In this document: positions 33,090 to 41,252 of the stretch, in pieces
Layout of the letters: each line of letters starts with the position of its first letter
Position numbering within the stretch: position 1 is the stretch's first letter
Source: Methanoregula sp.
GTDB taxonomy: Archaea > Halobacteriota > Methanomicrobia > Methanomicrobiales > Methanospirillaceae
Reading direction: 5' to 3'
DNA: 64,000 bases
Assembly (NCBI RefSeq): GCF_028679125.1
Contig: NZ_JAJRCG010000012.1
Span: 1-64,000 of the forward strand
Translations under genes and position numbers: made by a program
The notes under the pieces: model-generated
Databases searched by the model: none
What the model was told of the DNA's origin: nothing
The model's input: only the letters and a program-made list of their open reading frames with translations

Positions 33090-33718
33090 AGATTTTTTCC
33101 GAGACTTTTTTTCTTTGGAAAAACATGAGGAGGTTTGACGCTCTTGGGGGCTTACAGCCCCCGCCGCGTGGGCAGTCCCCTGTCGGATGGTTTGTGATGG
33201 GTTATAGCCATATATGTTCTGGCGATTGTGGGGGGTTGTAACCACATATCTTCATGATCGGGCGCCGGAAAATTTTCTGGCATGGACTCGGATAAAAAAA
33301 TTCTCCGGGAATTTTTCGCCGACTCATACTCGCTCCGGCCGGTTCAACGGCCGGCGTTATCAGAGGACACAGTCGGTGAGTGAGAGTGGGCTGTTTTTGT
33401 TAGAGTGGTTGCCCGTTGTTTGTTTGAAGCTCAGTAACGTGTTGTTTTGGTTTCGATCTTTTGCCGGTGTTTGTGCGATGGCGTCGAAGTTTTTCGTCGG
33501 TTTGCTGGAATGCTTTTTCGCCGAAGTTTGTGATGTCGCCTTTTTTGTGCAGGTTGTTTTTGCCAGATACTTCGTGTTGGGTGGGGGAACGGGCGTGAGG
33601 ATGAGCGGAGGGGTGGGTCAGATCTATTGTACCAGAAAACTTAGAGAATTATGCATATTTTAGTAGAGATATCTCTTTCATTGTCGATTAAAAATAAAAT
33701 GACTCCATAGATTACTTG
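33090..33718. other. 629-bp gene-free junction leading into AT-rich DNA
   Basis: A T-rich stretch right after the HxlR stop (33094-33113) is a likely terminator. The G/T-rich DNA up to about 33,600 has a 149-codon open frame, but its residue mix (F, V, W, C rich) is not protein-like and I do not call it. A perfect hairpin CCGGCCG-GTTCAA-CGGCCGG lies at 33335-33354. GC content drops sharply near 33,640, marking the start of the island. Confidence 0.5.
33335..33354. repeat. Perfect inverted repeat at the island edge
   Basis: CCGGCCG and CGGCCGG are perfectly paired around a GTTCAA loop. The loop resembles a tRNA T-loop in sequence, but no other tRNA element is present. It may be a terminator remnant or a recombination mark, as it lies about 300 bp before the composition change. 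Confidence 0.35.
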
Positions 33719-33916
33719 ATGATCGCTGAAAGGATGAGCATATTTTTGGATATAAGCAATAACAAGAAATATAGTGAAAAAGTAGCCGATAACATTTCGA
33801 AATATTTAATCGAAGGTTTGATTTCTGTTGCGTTAGATCTTATATACATCCAAAGAAAATTTAACCTAGAAAGTAAATCGTTTGTTTTATCGGAATGTAG
33901 TATAAGAGGACTCTAA
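33719..33916 (+). CDS. Small hypothetical protein upstream of the ATPase
   Basis: A 65-residue AT-rich frame starting with ATG 33719 (MIAERMSIFLDISNNKKYSE) that ends 43 bp before the ATPase gene. Its content is helical and lysine- and leucine-rich (SKYLIEGLISVALDLIYIQR). Composition equals that of the ATPase and nuclease genes. No family is recognised. It may be a real third member of the module, an antitoxin-like partner, or a chance frame in AT-rich DNA. Confidence 0.35.
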   Translation: MIAERMSIFLDISNNKKYSEKVADNISKYLIEGLISVALDLIYIQRKFNLESKSFVLSECSIRGL

Positions 33917-33959: not shown

Positions 33960-35369
33960 ATGAAAATCGAAATACAGAATTTAGGAGCAGCAAAAAGAGC
34001 GAATATTGATCTCAAACCTCTCACTGTATTTATCGGTGAAAATAATACTGGAAAAACATGGGTTGCATATACAATATGTGGACTTTTTGGGCAAGAAAGT
34101 TGGCTGACCTATCGTTCTCATTTTTCGAACGGTAAGTTAAAGGAAAAATATCCTCCGATTGAACAATTGCTTGATCAATTATTTGCTCAGGGTAACGCAA
34201 AAATTGACATAGTGGATTTTTTTAATGAGTATGCAAAAAAATATTATTCGAATTTATCAAAATTCTCTCCGATCTGGTTAAATCCTATGATGGGAACAAA
34301 TAAGAAGATTTTTGAGGACGTAAAAATTTCCGTAAATATTAGTGATGATTTTGAAGAGATGAAAAAAAACGTATTGTCTCGAAAAATTGACCTTTCATAT
34401 CCAAAAGGGACAGATAAAAAAGGACTAATTAATATTAAAAAAAATAGAGATGAAACAATACTGTACTTCTATTTCTCAGAAAATCGTTCATCTAGTGATT
34501 TACCTAAAGAAGTTATTAGGATGTTTGTTTATGGTTCAATTTTCCAAGTTATTCATAGATCATTGTACATAGACAATTTGTATCTCCCGGCCGAAAGAAC
34601 AGGGATAATGGCGTTTTTAGATGCCTTCCATATTGATAAGAGAATAGTGGATAATTCCAAAGAAGAAAAACAAACTGCAGAAGATGAACGAATATTACCA
34701 TTCCCAATATCAAAACTGATCTCATCGCTAGCAAGTTTGCAAAGTGAGAAAAAACTTAAAAAAATTACCCACCAGAGAACAAATAATTCAAATAAAAAGT
34801 TTTTAGATCTTGCAGATATTCTTGAAAAACAAGTCCTAGGTGGCAAATTTGAATATAAAGAAGGGGAAGGTCAACTATCCGATTCTCTCTATTATAGGCA
34901 TGGACGAGCAGCGGATTTGGATCTTGAATTAGCTGTCACCTCGTCTACAGTAAAAGACTTAGCTCCACTTACCCTGTATTTGCGTTATTTAATTCAATCA
35001 CGAGATTTGCTCTTAATCGATGAACCCGAGATGAATCTACATCCAGAAAACCAAGCAAAGCTTATGGAATTTTTGGTTATGTTGGTTCAGAATGGAGTTA
35101 GCGTGATTATGGTAACTCATAGTCCATACATGGTCAATCATTTAGAAAATCTAATGCGAGCTTATCCCAAAAAAACTGAAGAAAAAGTTATTGAAAAATT
35201 TTATCTAAAAAACAGTAATGCATTTATTTCAAAAGAAGACGTGTCAGTTTATCTATTTACTAACGATAATGAGAATGTTGAGAAAATAATTGACAAAAAA
35301 GGAAATATCAATTTAAAATCTTTTAGCTCAGTCGCAGAGGACATTGCAGAAATTTATTATGATGTTTAA
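33960..35369 (+). CDS. OLD/ABC-type AAA ATPase of a putative defence module
   Basis: A 469-residue ATPase of the AAA_15/AAA_21-like (OLD-type) group. Walker A is GENNTGKT at residues 26-33, a Q-loop-like region follows, the signature-like stretch is in TSSTVKDLAPL, Walker B is LLLIDEPEMNLHP (about 350-358) and the H-loop VTHSPYMVNHLENL (about 386). No TOPRIM domain follows, unlike true OLD nucleases. The gene is AT-rich, unlike the host. Its stop is 14 bp before the nuclease-like gene at 35384. It probably senses a phage trigger and controls the downstream nuclease; this is inferred from domain type and layout. Confidence 0.82.
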   Translation: MKIEIQNLGAAKRANIDLKPLTVFIGENNTGKTWVAYTICGLFGQESWLTYRSHFSNGKLKEKYPPIEQLLDQLFAQGNAKIDIVDFFNEYAKKYYSNLSKFSPIWLNPMMGTNKKIFEDVKISVNISDDFEEMKKNVLSRKIDLSYPKGTDKKGLINIKKNRDETILYFYFSENRSSSDLPKEVIRMFVYGSIFQVIHRSLYIDNLYLPAERTGIMAFLDAFHIDKRIVDNSKEEKQTAEDERILPFPISKLISSLASLQSEKKLKKITHQRTNNSNKKFLDLADILEKQVLGGKFEYKEGEGQLSDSLYYRHGRAADLDLELAVTSSTVKDLAPLTLYLRYLIQSRDLLLIDEPEMNLHPENQAKLMEFLVMLVQNGVSVIMVTHSPYMVNHLENLMRAYPKKTEEKVIEKFYLKNSNAFISKEDVSVYLFTNDNENVEKIIDKKGNINLKSFSSVAEDIAEIYYDV

Positions 35370-35383
35370 AGGCGGGGACATTC

Positions 35384-35920
35384 GTGACTTTCAATTTATT
35401 AGTGACTTCGTGTTTTCATCAAGGAACAACCTTTAAAGATGCGGACAATAGTCCTAGAATTGCTATATCACCTGATCCATCTCGCGAACAAATAATTTTT
35501 TTTAGAATTGATGAGGATGGACATATCCAAACTCCGTTCAGAAATGAATTCAATATGAATCACGATGGAGAGCGGATCTGTGATTTGCTGGTTTATTACA
35601 AAGATTTGTTAACCGGCAAACATTTTTTAGTCCTAACTGAATTAAAAGGGACCGATTTTGATGGAGCAGCAGATCAAATCATCAATACTTATAAAAAAAT
35701 GGCATTATACAATTGTCTTCGCAATAAGAAATATTGTGAGAATATTATTGTTAGAGCATGCGGTGTCTCAAAAAGACTGAATAAAAACGCAAATACTGAT
35801 GCAAAAAAAGCTAAAGGAAAAATTCTTAAAAGTATTCATATTGATAAAAAAGATTGTGATTTCGTCGATCCACGTGATTTTCTTCGTTTTTTAAGAGGCG
35901 AGAAGGTTTCGACAATATAG
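35384..35920 (+). CDS. Putative PD-(D/E)xK nuclease partner of the ATPase
   Basis: A 178-residue protein with no named family that I recognise. It shows a restriction-endonuclease-like catalytic pattern: D67 in ERICDLLVYY, then 19 residues on, E86-L-K88 in FLVLTELKG, followed by GAADQIINTYKKMALYN, which fits D-(X)n-ExK in a core beta-sheet. The C-terminal part is lysine-rich with KGKILKSIHIDKKDCDFVDPRDFLRFLRG. The start is GTG 35384, preceded by GGCGGGGA. It forms a pair with the ATPase, in AT-rich DNA. The nuclease assignment rests on the motif only. Confidence 0.6.
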   Translation: MTFNLLVTSCFHQGTTFKDADNSPRIAISPDPSREQIIFFRIDEDGHIQTPFRNEFNMNHDGERICDLLVYYKDLLTGKHFLVLTELKGTDFDGAADQIINTYKKMALYNCLRNKKYCENIIVRACGVSKRLNKNANTDAKKAKGKILKSIHIDKKDCDFVDPRDFLRFLRGEKVSTI

Positions 35921-36076: not shown

Positions 36077-36766
36077 TTATGATCGCCCGCTGATCAACCG
36101 TGCCGTCGCGTCCTGTGTGAGCAGGGTCATCTGGTGGATCGCGATTGCATTCAGTTTTACCAGCCGCTCGGGCTGGGGAATATCTTCGCCAATAAAATGT
36201 GCGTTCAGGTTCTCAAGATTCGAGAGGCAGACCATCTGCGAGATATCGGCGTAATCCCGGATATTTCCTTTCTTGTCCGGGTTGCTGTCGCGCCATTCTT
36301 TTGCGGTGAACCCGAAGAGGGCCATGTTGAGAAGATCGGCTTCTGATGCGTACACCCGGTTGATCTGAGCCGGATTGAGCTCTTTTGGGATCAGGTTCTC
36401 CTTGATCGCATCCGTGTGAATACGGTAGTTGATCTTTGCAAGGTTACGCCGGATATCCCAACCCAGTTGTTTGCGTTCCTCATCCTTGAGTCGCTGGAAT
36501 TCCTTGATCAGGTAGAGTTTGAACTCCACCGAGATCCAGGAAGCGAATTCAAACGCGATATCCTTGTGAGCATAGGTACCGCCATACCGTCCGGGTTTTG
36601 CCTTGATACCATGGGCGTTTGTTTTCCCGATCCATTGTCGTGCAGTGAGGATGAAACTGTTGAGTCCTGCCTGTTTTCTAATCCCATCGAATTCGATGGG
36701 ATTAAAATCCGGGTTATTGAGCTGCTCCCGACAGTGATCCTTTGTCGGCTCTCTTTCCCCCCATAT
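36077..36766 (-). pseudogene. KilA-N domain protein, N-terminus missing
   Basis: The C-terminal two-thirds of a KilA-N (phage/archaeal DNA-binding) protein. On the minus strand the frame is open from 36766 to the TAA at 36077 with conserved stretches REQLNNPDFNPIEFDGI, GLNSFILTARQWIGKTNA, KPGRYGGTYAHKDIAFEF and EFKLYLIKEFQRLKDEE. No ATG, GTG or TTG occurs in this conserved upstream part; the first is GTG 36529, which would lose the domain core. Homology breaks near 36730, where AT-rich DNA begins, so about 60-70 N-terminal residues are gone. The gene was probably cut by the insertion of the adjacent element. Confidence 0.75.
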
Positions 36767-36906
36767 TTATTGACAGGTATCATCCTGGACTCCAGAGCTG
36801 CTATCTTAAAATCGTTCAGCTGACAAAATCAAATGCAAATGAATTTATTATTAAAATAACCATTTTTAAAAGACACATCTCAATATCCACATTGGAATTT
36901 TTAAAA

Positions 36907-37455
36907 ATGAACCCCGATGAAGATATAATATCGGATTGGATAACATTTGGTTTTTGCATAAATAATTACCTGAAAAATCCTGATACAATTCCGCAAGAAT
37001 CCCGAGAAAAGGTAGGGTATATTGTTCAATCTCTCGACGGAATAATTGCAAAATCGGTACTATCCGAACATCAATTTCAAACTATTTCAGATCTTCAAAG
37101 TGATGAAAACCCACAATTGTTTCGAGCGGTCTGGGGCCCTTATGCCAAAGAAATAAAAGACAAACTTGCCAAGGGTTTTTCATCCATCGATCCGAATCCC
37201 GGATTTGAATCGTGGACTGTTGATATTCAAATCGCCCTGAAAAAATTTACAAATACCGAATCACAGCACAACATAATTTTTATCACCGATTGTTTAGTAA
37301 ATGAAAAGGCATTGTTTATTGACGGGGAAGCACATGAAATTCTTTTTCCACGACATACTGCGTGGCGAATTATTTCACATCGGATTTATGAAGAAGATAG
37401 CAGGACAATTACGTTTATTTATGTAAAAAAGAGAACTATATTCAGTAGTGGCTAA
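36907..37455 (+). CDS. Putative ADP-ribosyltransferase-fold protein
   Basis: A 182-residue AT-rich gene product with no close named family. The pattern resembles the R-S-E class of mono-ADP-ribosyltransferases: R73 in QLFRAVW, S102-W-T in FESWTVDIQIALKKF (equivalent to the S-T-S/SWT motif), and E144 preceding ILFP in GEAHEILFPRHTAWRI. The first residue of the ExE pair is Ala (A142), which in this class affects the target residue. The start at ATG 36907 is preferred; the longer open frame overlaps KilA-N-derived DNA. It is followed by an overlapping gene. It may be a toxin or effector that modifies a host or phage protein; this is inferred. Confidence 0.45.
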   Translation: MNPDEDIISDWITFGFCINNYLKNPDTIPQESREKVGYIVQSLDGIIAKSVLSEHQFQTISDLQSDENPQLFRAVWGPYAKEIKDKLAKGFSSIDPNPGFESWTVDIQIALKKFTNTESQHNIIFITDCLVNEKALFIDGEAHEILFPRHTAWRIISHRIYEEDSRTITFIYVKKRTIFSSG

Positions 37456-37810
37456 AATGGCAGCGAAAATCAGAACATTTACTCAATCGAATGTGAACAC
37501 CATTACGGAAGTTCAGGCTCGGTCAAACGGAGTAAATAAATTGGGCCACCGCATTGCCAGAGAAAGACCTGGCCGTTGCATTGCAGGAGCGAAGGATAAA
37601 ATTGTGGTCGCTCATGCGTTAAGAGCGAGAGCTATTCATCAAGCAAAAAAACCAGAATATGTCCTTCCCAAGGAAGATTATAACGAACGGTTTTTTTGGA
37701 ATACCGATGAAATTGCTCTTTCAAAAATAAAAATTCCACCTACACCGGCAGAATTGAGACATGCCCGTGAAGTTATTGCAAAAATCGGAACAAAATTTTT
37801 ACATCAATAA
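37448..37810 (+). CDS. Hypothetical basic protein coupled to the ART-like gene
   Basis: A 120-residue basic protein (GTG 37448, overlapping the stop of the previous gene by 8 bp; ATG 37457 three codons later is an alternative). It is rich in Arg/Lys/Ala (ARERPGRCIAGAKDKIVVAHALRARAIHQAKKP), with an acidic C-terminal part (KEDYNERFFWNTDEIALSKI). No family is recognised. The overlap suggests translational coupling, so it may be an immunity or antitoxin partner of the ART-like protein, or a nucleic-acid-binding subunit. Confidence 0.5.
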   Translation: MAKMAAKIRTFTQSNVNTITEVQARSNGVNKLGHRIARERPGRCIAGAKDKIVVAHALRARAIHQAKKPEYVLPKEDYNERFFWNTDEIALSKIKIPPTPAELRHAREVIAKIGTKFLHQ

Positions 37811-39048: not shown

Positions 39049-40257
39049 ATGCAGATGCGGGAGTGCTGACCGATCATTCAGTTTTTTTCAGTTACCTGGC
39101 GTTCATGGAGGATCACCCTCGTTATTCTCCTCCTCATCGTACTGGTGCAGGGAGTTCTGGCAGAAGAGACCTGCCCGGTTATCCGATCGTGGAACGGGTT
39201 ATCCAATGTAACAGCCGCCGGTTTTGCCATCCATCCCTACGGCAATGTGTATGTGACTGACAGCGCAAACAACCGGGTCATGGTGTTCAGTGAAACCGGG
39301 AAGTATTTATTTTCCTGGGGAAGTGAGAGGCCCGGGGACGGGCAGTTCAAAGCCCCCCGGGGTATTGCAATAGACCGGTCCGGCACGGTGTATGTTGCAG
39401 ACACCGGGAACCACACGATCCAGAAGATCAGTTCGCGGGGATTTTTCCTCTGGGGCCGTGAGGGGACCGAGAGCGGGCAGTTTGACTCTCCCGTCGGAAT
39501 TGCTGTTGATTCGTCCGGCAACGTGTATGTTGCGGATACGGGCAATGACCGGATACAGGTATTCCATTCAACCGGCCAGTACCTGGTGACCTGGGGATCG
39601 TATGGATCCCTGAACGGGTATTTTATTGCACCGGAGGGGATCGCCATCGATTCATCCGGCACGATGTATGTTGCGGATACGGGCAACAACCGGATACAGA
39701 AGATCAGTCGTGACGGGACCGTCATCACAACCTGGGGCAGCGGGGGAACCGAAAGCGGGCAGTTCACCGCCCCTTCCGGTGTTGCTCTTGATTACTGGGG
39801 CAATGTGTACGTATCCGATGCCAGTTCCCGGATCCAGACGTTCAGCCCGGCCGGGGAATTTCTTTCATCGTGCAGGACCGGCGGGAGGAACATTGCGATT
39901 GCCACGGATTCGTCCGGCACGGTGTACGCACTCTGGCAATCCGGTACCCGGTGGACGATCGGGCAACTCGGCCCCCGGTCTCCGACATACGTAACGGCCT
40001 CCACCCCGAGAGTCCGGTCCACTATTTCGATTATTGCAGAACGGGAAAATCCCCGGGTTACACCGGCAACCCGTCTCACGACCGCAGTAACCACCTCCCC
40101 GGTGACAACGGCAACGCCCGCTCCCGCACCCGCTGCGGATGATAATGCAACGATGGCAGCGCCCGTTGTTGAAGAAACGCTCCAGAAGACCGGAACACAC
40201 GAGACCCTCCTGGATCCGATCGCCAGGTTTTTCCGGAATCTGTTTGGCGGGAAATAA
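39049..40257 (+). CDS. Secreted NHL-repeat beta-propeller protein, start interrupted by UGA
   Basis: A secreted six-bladed NHL propeller: repeats of the form GNVYVTDSANNRVMVF, GTVYVADTGNHTIQKI, GNVYVADTGNDRIQVF, GTMYVADTGNNRIQKI, GNVYVSDASSRIQTF, each about 47 residues, then a Thr/Pro/Ala-rich tail and a C-terminal helix FRNLFGGK. A clear signal peptide RSWRITLVILLLIVLVQGVLA (39103-39165) lies in frame upstream of GTG 39145, but the only ATGs in that frame (39049, 39055) are cut off by a TGA at 39067-39069. So it is a start-lacking gene, a readthrough case or a sequence error. NHL propellers bind proteins or ligands outside the cell. Confidence 0.7.
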
Positions 40258-40574: not shown

Positions 40575-41252
40575 TTGGCGGATTCCGGTTCCCGGTGGTG
40601 CATCGACACCAATACTCTTGTTCCCTGGCTGATAACGGACTCCGGTGTTCTGGACCTTCTTATTAAAAAATATGGAATCCCTGCAGATTTCCGGGAGATC
40701 TATCTGAACCGTCATAAACAATCGATCGAATTTATCCAGAGAATTATTGACATGAAATCCGAAGGGTTTCAGGACGAGTTTTATTTTTCCTATCTTGCAA
40801 TGAATGAAGTTTTTTCGGCAGTCCGTGATGAAATGCGGAGTATCCTGTTATTTAAAAATGGTACCCCTCTGTCCCGGTGGAGCGAGGAGAAAAATTCCCT
40901 TGACCTTCCCGGTGATTCAATGGAGACTGTATTTGAGGAGATCGAAAACAAGTTCGATATCTTATTCGGAAACAACACGATATTACCGTTATCCGATGAA
41001 CCGGAAGAAAAAGGCGACAATTTTTCTGAAATAGTGGCTTCTTTGATCTTCACATTCAAACGTGTCAAGACGCAGGATGCAATATTACTGACAACCGCCA
41101 TCTCCGTCCGGGCGAACTATTTTGTTACGTTCGACAAGAGATTAATCTCCGAAGTTTCGAAAGATCTTAATAAAAAATATCATCTGCACCTTATTCTTCC
41201 TGCCCATGGCAATACGTTGCTCAAAAAAGGAAAACATCCCATGAGATTCTGA
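40575..41252 (+). CDS. PIN-domain putative ribonuclease
   Basis: A 225-residue PIN-domain protein. Metal-binding acids are in CIDTNTLVPWL (D10), SYLAMNEVFSAVRDE and VKTQDAILLTTAISVRANYFVTFDKRL; the final ATA and FVTFDKR elements fit the PIN fold. The start is TTG 40575 with GGGAG 7 bp upstream, and no ATG fits. It is longer than typical VapC toxins (about 130) owing to an insertion of about 60 residues (ENKFDILFGNNTILPLSDEP). It is coupled to the 42-residue gene upstream. Likely an RNase toxin; the target is unknown. Confidence 0.7.
   Translation: MADSGSRWCIDTNTLVPWLITDSGVLDLLIKKYGIPADFREIYLNRHKQSIEFIQRIIDMKSEGFQDEFYFSYLAMNEVFSAVRDEMRSILLFKNGTPLSRWSEEKNSLDLPGDSMETVFEEIENKFDILFGNNTILPLSDEPEEKGDNFSEIVASLIFTFKRVKTQDAILLTTAISVRANYFVTFDKRLISEVSKDLNKKYHLHLILPAHGNTLLKKGKHPMRF

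Follow-up and report, generated by a model that had tools for sequence, protein, structure and literature searches.

The closest described counterparts of the gene pair analysed here are two antiviral systems of bacteria, PD-T4-4 and WonAB. The pair lies at positions 33,960 to 35,920 of a 64,000-nucleotide stretch of Methanoregula sp. DNA (contig NZ_JAJRCG010000012.1, positions 1 to 64,000 of the forward strand), which we call the window. PD-T4-4 came from a selection against phage T4 in E. coli (Vassallo et al. 2022, PMC9519451), and a table in PMC10952713 lists its ATPase and PD-(D/E)XK domains. WonAB is encoded by the WASA-1 prophage of Vibrio cholerae (Adams et al. 2025, PMC12137116). According to that report both genes are required for antiviral activity, which takes the form of abortive infection: genomic DNA is left intact and translation stops, and the authors suggest rRNA or tRNA as the target. 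Residues K34, R182, E300 and H333 of WonA are essential. The authors regard WonAB as belonging to a wider family in which ABC-ATPase sensors are combined with nuclease effectors, and relate it to the 'OLD-ABC ATPase + novel REase' operon, a broad in-silico class (Krishnan et al. 2020, cited in PMC12137116). The same account of WonAB is repeated in PMC12409358.

In the window, an ATPase gene (gene A) is followed after a gap of 14 bp by the gene of a small protein (gene B). We read the pair, with a probability of roughly 0.7, as the archaeal version of a PD-T4-4/WonAB-type antiviral operon, whose mechanism would be carried over by analogy from WonAB. We conclude that the pair exists as described and most probably acts against viruses, and that its kind is already known. 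A first-pass annotation, made from the sequence alone, had proposed an undescribed system and had limited the separate effectors of OLD-like ATPases to UvrD, TOPRIM or HNH proteins. Its assignment of the ATPase type, the PD-(D/E)xK pattern of the partner, the adjacency of the two genes and the probable defence role have stood. The limit on effectors was wrong and the word 'undescribed' no longer applies, given that PD-T4-4 and WonAB, both products of research on phage resistance, already combine a small PD-(D/E)xK protein with an ATPase of the OLD/ABC type; a third gene that the annotation had suggested is discussed with the neighbouring genes. The features used in the comparison are as follows, in window coordinates.

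33960..35369 (+): gene A, OLD-type ABC ATPase of 469 amino acids without TOPRIM, putative sensor/regulator, start ATG
34035..34058 (+): Walker A motif GENNTGKT, residues 26-33; K32 corresponds by motif to WonA K34
34596..34598 (+): R213, within the AERTG motif, which by motif, not from an alignment with WonA, probably corresponds to WonA R182
35007..35045 (+): Walker B and D-loop region LLLIDEPEMNLHP, residues 350-362, including E355, from the translation
35112..35132 (+): H-loop VTHSPYM, residues 385-391, including H387, from the translation
35133..35366 (+): C-terminal extension past the H-loop (residues 392-469), on which B is proposed to dock, after the WonAB model
35384..35920 (+): gene B, putative PD-(D/E)xK nuclease (effector) of 178 amino acids, start GTG
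35582..35584 (+): D67, the presumed catalytic Asp, unchanged across the 8 archaeal rows
35639..35647 (+): E86-L87-K88, putative catalytic (D/E)xK; E86 and K88 likewise unchanged across the 8 rows

The ATPase is the better anchored of the two proteins. Residues 2-392 match AAA_15 (6.2e-28), and no TOPRIM family was found among the Pfam matches. The best PADLOC match was PD-T4-4_A at 1.7e-66 over residues 1-466 (a second PD-T4-4_A model gave 2.9e-43), and PDC-M47A (7.5e-54) and AriA (2.1e-31) were also among the best. PDC-M29A matched at 3e-13, and there were matches to models of GajA, starting at 2.3e-12, and of PtuA, starting at 1.9e-11. A profile search of PDB returned 11 sequences at E <= 1e-8, which were PtuA-type ATPases, OLD and AriA. 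Two ATPase alignments were used, one of 13 rows (archaea, plasmids and one phage) and one of 15 rows (the window, locus L012 and viral contigs). R213, E355 and H387 were invariant in both, K32 was invariant in the 15 rows and nearly so in the 13, where one row lacks the N-terminus, and F455 in the C-terminal extension was invariant in the 13 rows and nearly so in the 15. Compared by motif and not aligned with WonA, K32, R213, E355 and H387 appear equivalent to WonA K34, R182, E300 and H333. In a tree of 29 ATPases the window protein grouped with four archaeal rows at a support of 89/91, below the star of the tool, and the archaeal rows did not form one group (2 changes); the exact place of the window ATPase is therefore not firm.

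Gene B alone had no significant Pfam, NCBIfam or PADLOC family, the best PADLOC row being PDC-S39 at 0.021. Searching with the single sequence found it in 3 of 100 relatives, and an alignment profile did so in 8 of the 392 genomes searched from the phylum, its own genome being included in both counts. The archaeal alignment likewise has 8 rows, with genome G028 added from the single-sequence search and G371, where the gene is cut by the contig end, left out. Fourteen columns were invariant across these rows, among them D67, E86, K88 and Q98. It is this conservation that speaks for the motif, which the first-pass annotation had noted together with the ATPase motifs and which we read again from the translation (D67, E86, L87, K88). 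A loose D...(D/E)xK pattern turned up in 573 of 1700 shuffled sequences, so the pattern by itself proves nothing, and a regular expression was rejected as evidence. In public collections, searches with B or with the archaeal profile found none in plasmids and none in viral contigs; in genome contigs there was none and then one locus (L012). The corresponding sequence searches of PDB gave nothing credible.

Fold models were built for B and for a relative of the bacterial type. The window model was poor, with a predicted local distance difference test score (pLDDT) of 44, and Foldseek and VIA returned low-scoring unrelated folds and no PD-(D/E)xK enzyme; the order of its elements is compatible with PD-(D/E)xK, and we give it no further weight. 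The bacterial-type relative (L034) gave a pLDDT of 69.1 and a predicted TM-score of 0.74, with a b-b-b-a-b core carrying D87 and D104-x-K106. By our own count, 41 of the 50 listed VIA rows for this model are what we take to be PD-(D/E)xK enzymes. Foldseek found no match for it at E <= 0.001 in either PDB, where RecBCD was the best row at 0.039, or BFVD, where the row in second place carries the name PD-(D/E)XK (E 0.019).

The two families of effectors, archaeal and bacterial, could be linked by profile comparison. Using hhalign, 8 archaeal rows against 6 bacterial rows gave a probability of 83.9 and an E-value of 7.7e-6 over 65 columns, placing CD on CD and ELK on (D/E)xK. With 7 archaeal rows against 11 bacterial and viral-contig rows the score was 44.7 (probability 88.5), where the best of 30 column shuffles reached 15.4 and the reversed alignment 11.3. 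These comparisons suggest a distant relationship between the archaeal B family and the proteins that partner such ATPases in bacteria. Links of the window's group to the archaeal groups II (G257, G064; 29.6) and III (G169, G203, G224, G218; 23.8) were weak, and no profile link was found to the viral-contig partners L033/L036 (13.8) or L041/L045 (14.2). Group II was linked to the bacterial partners (score 43.9, probability 90.0), and for group III no such profile link was found (17.1). None of the 8 archaeal rows matched the PADLOC models PD-T4-4_B (at E <= 0.1) or PDC-M47B; the G229 effector matched PDC-M29B at 2e-4.

Pairing of the two genes is kept well beyond the window, as a neighbourhood search proposed by the first-pass annotation was meant to check. 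The ATPase profile was positive at E <= 1e-25 in 14 of the 392 genomes, the best four or fewer candidates per genome having been scored, so that further copies are possible. Reading the open reading frames (ORFs) and frames showed a small CD...Ex(K/T) gene directly downstream of the ATPase in 14/14 of them. The partner has CD...ExK in nine (G000, G021, G186, G229, G232, G401, G257, G064 and G204) and CD...ExT in five (G169, G203, G218, G224 and G333). The G204 copy, with a short ATPase ORF (223 amino acids) and a downstream ORF of 139 amino acids, may be incomplete. Starting from the effector, an adjoining ATPase was present in seven of the eight positive genomes, the eighth (G371) being cut by the contig end; six of the eight are among the 14, and in G251 the C-terminus of an ATPase stands within 247 bases before the effector, at a contig end.

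The ExT partners (loci L074-L078) read CD...VECT(T/S)G(K/R), with Thr at the position expected for the catalytic Lys, and perhaps have an altered or lost active site, judging from their sequences.

A tblastn search of bacteria with the ATPase found 34 plasmid and 3 phage records, many of them near-identical. In all six records that were opened, which include none of the 10 Enterococcus records, a hypothetical gene of 184-210 amino acids lies directly downstream of the ATPase, and its product matches PADLOC PD-T4-4_B or PDC-M47B. Scanning viral contigs with the ATPase profile gave 45 loci, several near-identical, and 34 of them have a downstream ORF of 170-245 amino acids with a loose D...(D/E)xK, although several printed matches are clearly not the motif. 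Given these false matches and the frequency of the pattern in shuffles, the count can be taken as evidence that a small partner gene is present, not that it is active. The other 11 loci comprise L029, whose partner lacks the pattern, L025, L053 and L027, with split, partial or absent partners, and L057-L063, which encode proteins of 382-614 amino acids, mostly long, without such a small partner.

Other small partners were seen at the viral-contig loci L029, L033, L036 and L041. They had no PADLOC match at E <= 0.01, and are perhaps further effector families of the same kind.

Set against the described systems, the window pair resembles PD-T4-4 in having two genes, for an OLD/AAA_15-type ATPase matching PD-T4-4_A and a small putative PD-(D/E)xK protein; it differs in its archaeal host and in B, which matches no PD-T4-4_B model at E <= 1 and has a remote profile link only. 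Because B has no such match, the pair is not filed as PD-T4-4 but provisionally, on its sequence features, under the broader kind that combines an OLD-type ABC ATPase and a small PD-(D/E)xK nuclease. With WonAB it has in common an operon in which an OLD-type ABC ATPase carrying the same set of motifs is joined by a small PD-(D/E)xK protein, putative in the window, and the G229 relative, like WonAB, is borne by a provirus. WonB is smaller (16.1 kDa against 178 residues in window B, compared without direct sequence alignment), and activity has been demonstrated for WonAB only. As for the PADLOC candidate systems PDC-M47 and PDC-M29, window A matches both A models but window B neither B model. 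PARIS, Septu and Gabija share the OLD-type ATPase core, as seen in the AriA, PtuA and GajA matches, but window B has no match to AriB (TOPRIM-type), to HNH or PtuB, or to a UvrD-type protein, respectively, and window A lacks the TOPRIM found in Gabija.

The defence role put forward in the first-pass annotation is probable, as relatives of the pair adjoin known defence genes. Two such loci and a provirus locus, all outside the window, are as follows.

L084, 778-4101: BrxC (BREX), match 5.2e-190, adjoining an archaeal copy of the pair
L083, 2460-8214: HsdS (7e-85) and HsdM (2.4e-120) of a type I restriction-modification system, adjoining an archaeal copy of the pair
L082, 8742-10752: diverged copy of the pair in G229, inside an archaeal head-tail provirus, with head genes on one side and tail genes on the other

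The G229 provirus was recognised by its head protease (1.9e-22), virion structural protein (2.6e-93) and tape measure protein (4.1e-103). By eye, no defence or provirus neighbours were recognised within 20 kb of the copies in G232, G401 and G021. Three genomes of the same genus have different neighbours of the pair; in G021 it lies about 820 kb from the homologue of hcp, the left neighbour in the window. Base composition also sets the window pair apart: GC over 34-36 kb is 0.33, as against 0.55-0.61 in the left flank (28-33 kb) and 0.39-0.55 in the right flank (36-40 kb), and third-position GC is 0.26 for A and 0.25 for B, compared with 0.80 for hcp. This bears out the AT-rich character given to the pair by the first-pass annotation. 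No convincing att-type direct repeats flanking the pair were found in the window.

Following the WonAB work, A would form a dimer with two ATP sites, and B would be held on the C-terminal extension of A, as in the WonAB model (PMC12137116). Virus infection would lead A to let or make B cut nucleic acid. Abortive infection would be the most likely outcome, with B cleaving RNA needed for translation (tRNA or rRNA) and the infected cell stopping before virions are made.

ABC ATPase/nuclease pairs also serve in DNA repair, and one copy of the pair, in the same-genus genome G028, adjoins ORFs read by eye as uvrA and uvrC. A housekeeping repair pair would nevertheless hardly be expected to be as sparse as this one (8/392 genomes for the B profile, 14/392 for the A profile), to change its neighbours within a genus, to be low in GC or to have PD-T4-4_A as the best PADLOC match of its ATPase, and we consider this explanation very improbable. 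In a direct-immunity version, B would be a DNase cutting incoming viral or plasmid DNA, and the cell would survive; what A would read is some property by which foreign or replicating DNA can be told. This is possible but unlikely, as WonAB spares host DNA and arrests translation (PMC12137116).

The pair could also serve the mobile elements themselves, as a superinfection-exclusion or element-maintenance module, an addiction unit resembling a toxin-antitoxin pair, with A keeping B in check. The G229 copy inside a provirus, the relatives on plasmids and in viral contigs, the low third-position GC in the window and the remnant of a phage-family regulator (phrog_2657) beside the window pair are all consistent with this, but no integrase or mobility gene was identified beside the window pair among the few ORFs scanned. 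Furthermore, WonB is toxic only when WonA is present, from which the WonAB authors argue against WonA being simply an antitoxin (PMC12137116), and we regard such a module as quite unlikely. An antiviral operon of the PD-T4-4/WonAB kind remains our preferred reading. Of the 14 pairing genomes, 6 (G000, G021, G186, G229, G232 and G401) were already rows of the profile, found via the effector, and our confidence is slightly lowered because they are not independent of that search. The independent test consists of the 8 genomes found by the ATPase alone, and the partner is present in 8/8.

Among the window ORFs scanned, the sole defence-like neighbour is at 36077-36529 (-), the C-terminal half of a transcriptional-regulator-type protein, PDC-S22 (3.6e-67, model positions 127-270 of 281) or phrog_2657 (1.1e-38, positions 97-235 of 243). 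The N-terminal half is not in the ORF, and the gene looks truncated or degraded from its sequence. Two GC-poor ORFs at 36742-37810 (+), with a third-position GC of about 0.30, had no PADLOC match at E <= 1e-5, and the first of them no PHROGs match either; they are possibly part of the same acquired stretch as the pair. Further to the right, a protein with repeats of about 141 nt at 39145-40257 (+) has an NHL/beta-propeller look by eye, and a 225-amino-acid ORF at 40575-41252 (+) has weak PIN-domain similarity only (TIGR00305 0.0082, PIN_3 0.086). The small gene that the first-pass annotation had placed at 33719 as a third component (33716-33916 here) was rejected, having a match in its own genome only (1/60) and none to any family. 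A comparison with an empty site was given up, since hcp and the aldolase gene, which flank the pair, are separated by about 87 kb in G033, a genome in one contig.

The published descriptions that we found for this kind of system are bacterial only. A term search of the main text of a 2026 survey of archaeal immunity (PMC12988326) gave no PD-T4, WonAB or OLD, no mention of PD-T4 was found in the available text of an OLD review (PMC10568477), and no description of an archaeal member was seen among the papers listed by searches on PD-T4-4, WonAB (also together with archaea) or PDC-M47/M29/S22.

It is possible, though rather unlikely, that the window's archaeal group is a branch of its own, with relatives in head-tailed proviruses and with an effector, undetected by the PADLOC models, that would bring about translation arrest in infected methanogens. 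If this is true, archaea would have abortive infection of this type gated by an ATPase, and it would be a weapon with which viruses compete against one another. Because PD-T4-4_B and PDC-M47B match none of the 8 archaeal effectors scanned, software requiring a hit to both models would overlook these operons. If the operons work, the ATPase-plus-nuclease design of abortive infection would extend to methanogens, and their diverged natural variants, including those with ExT for ExK, would be available for studying how an ATPase controls a nuclease.
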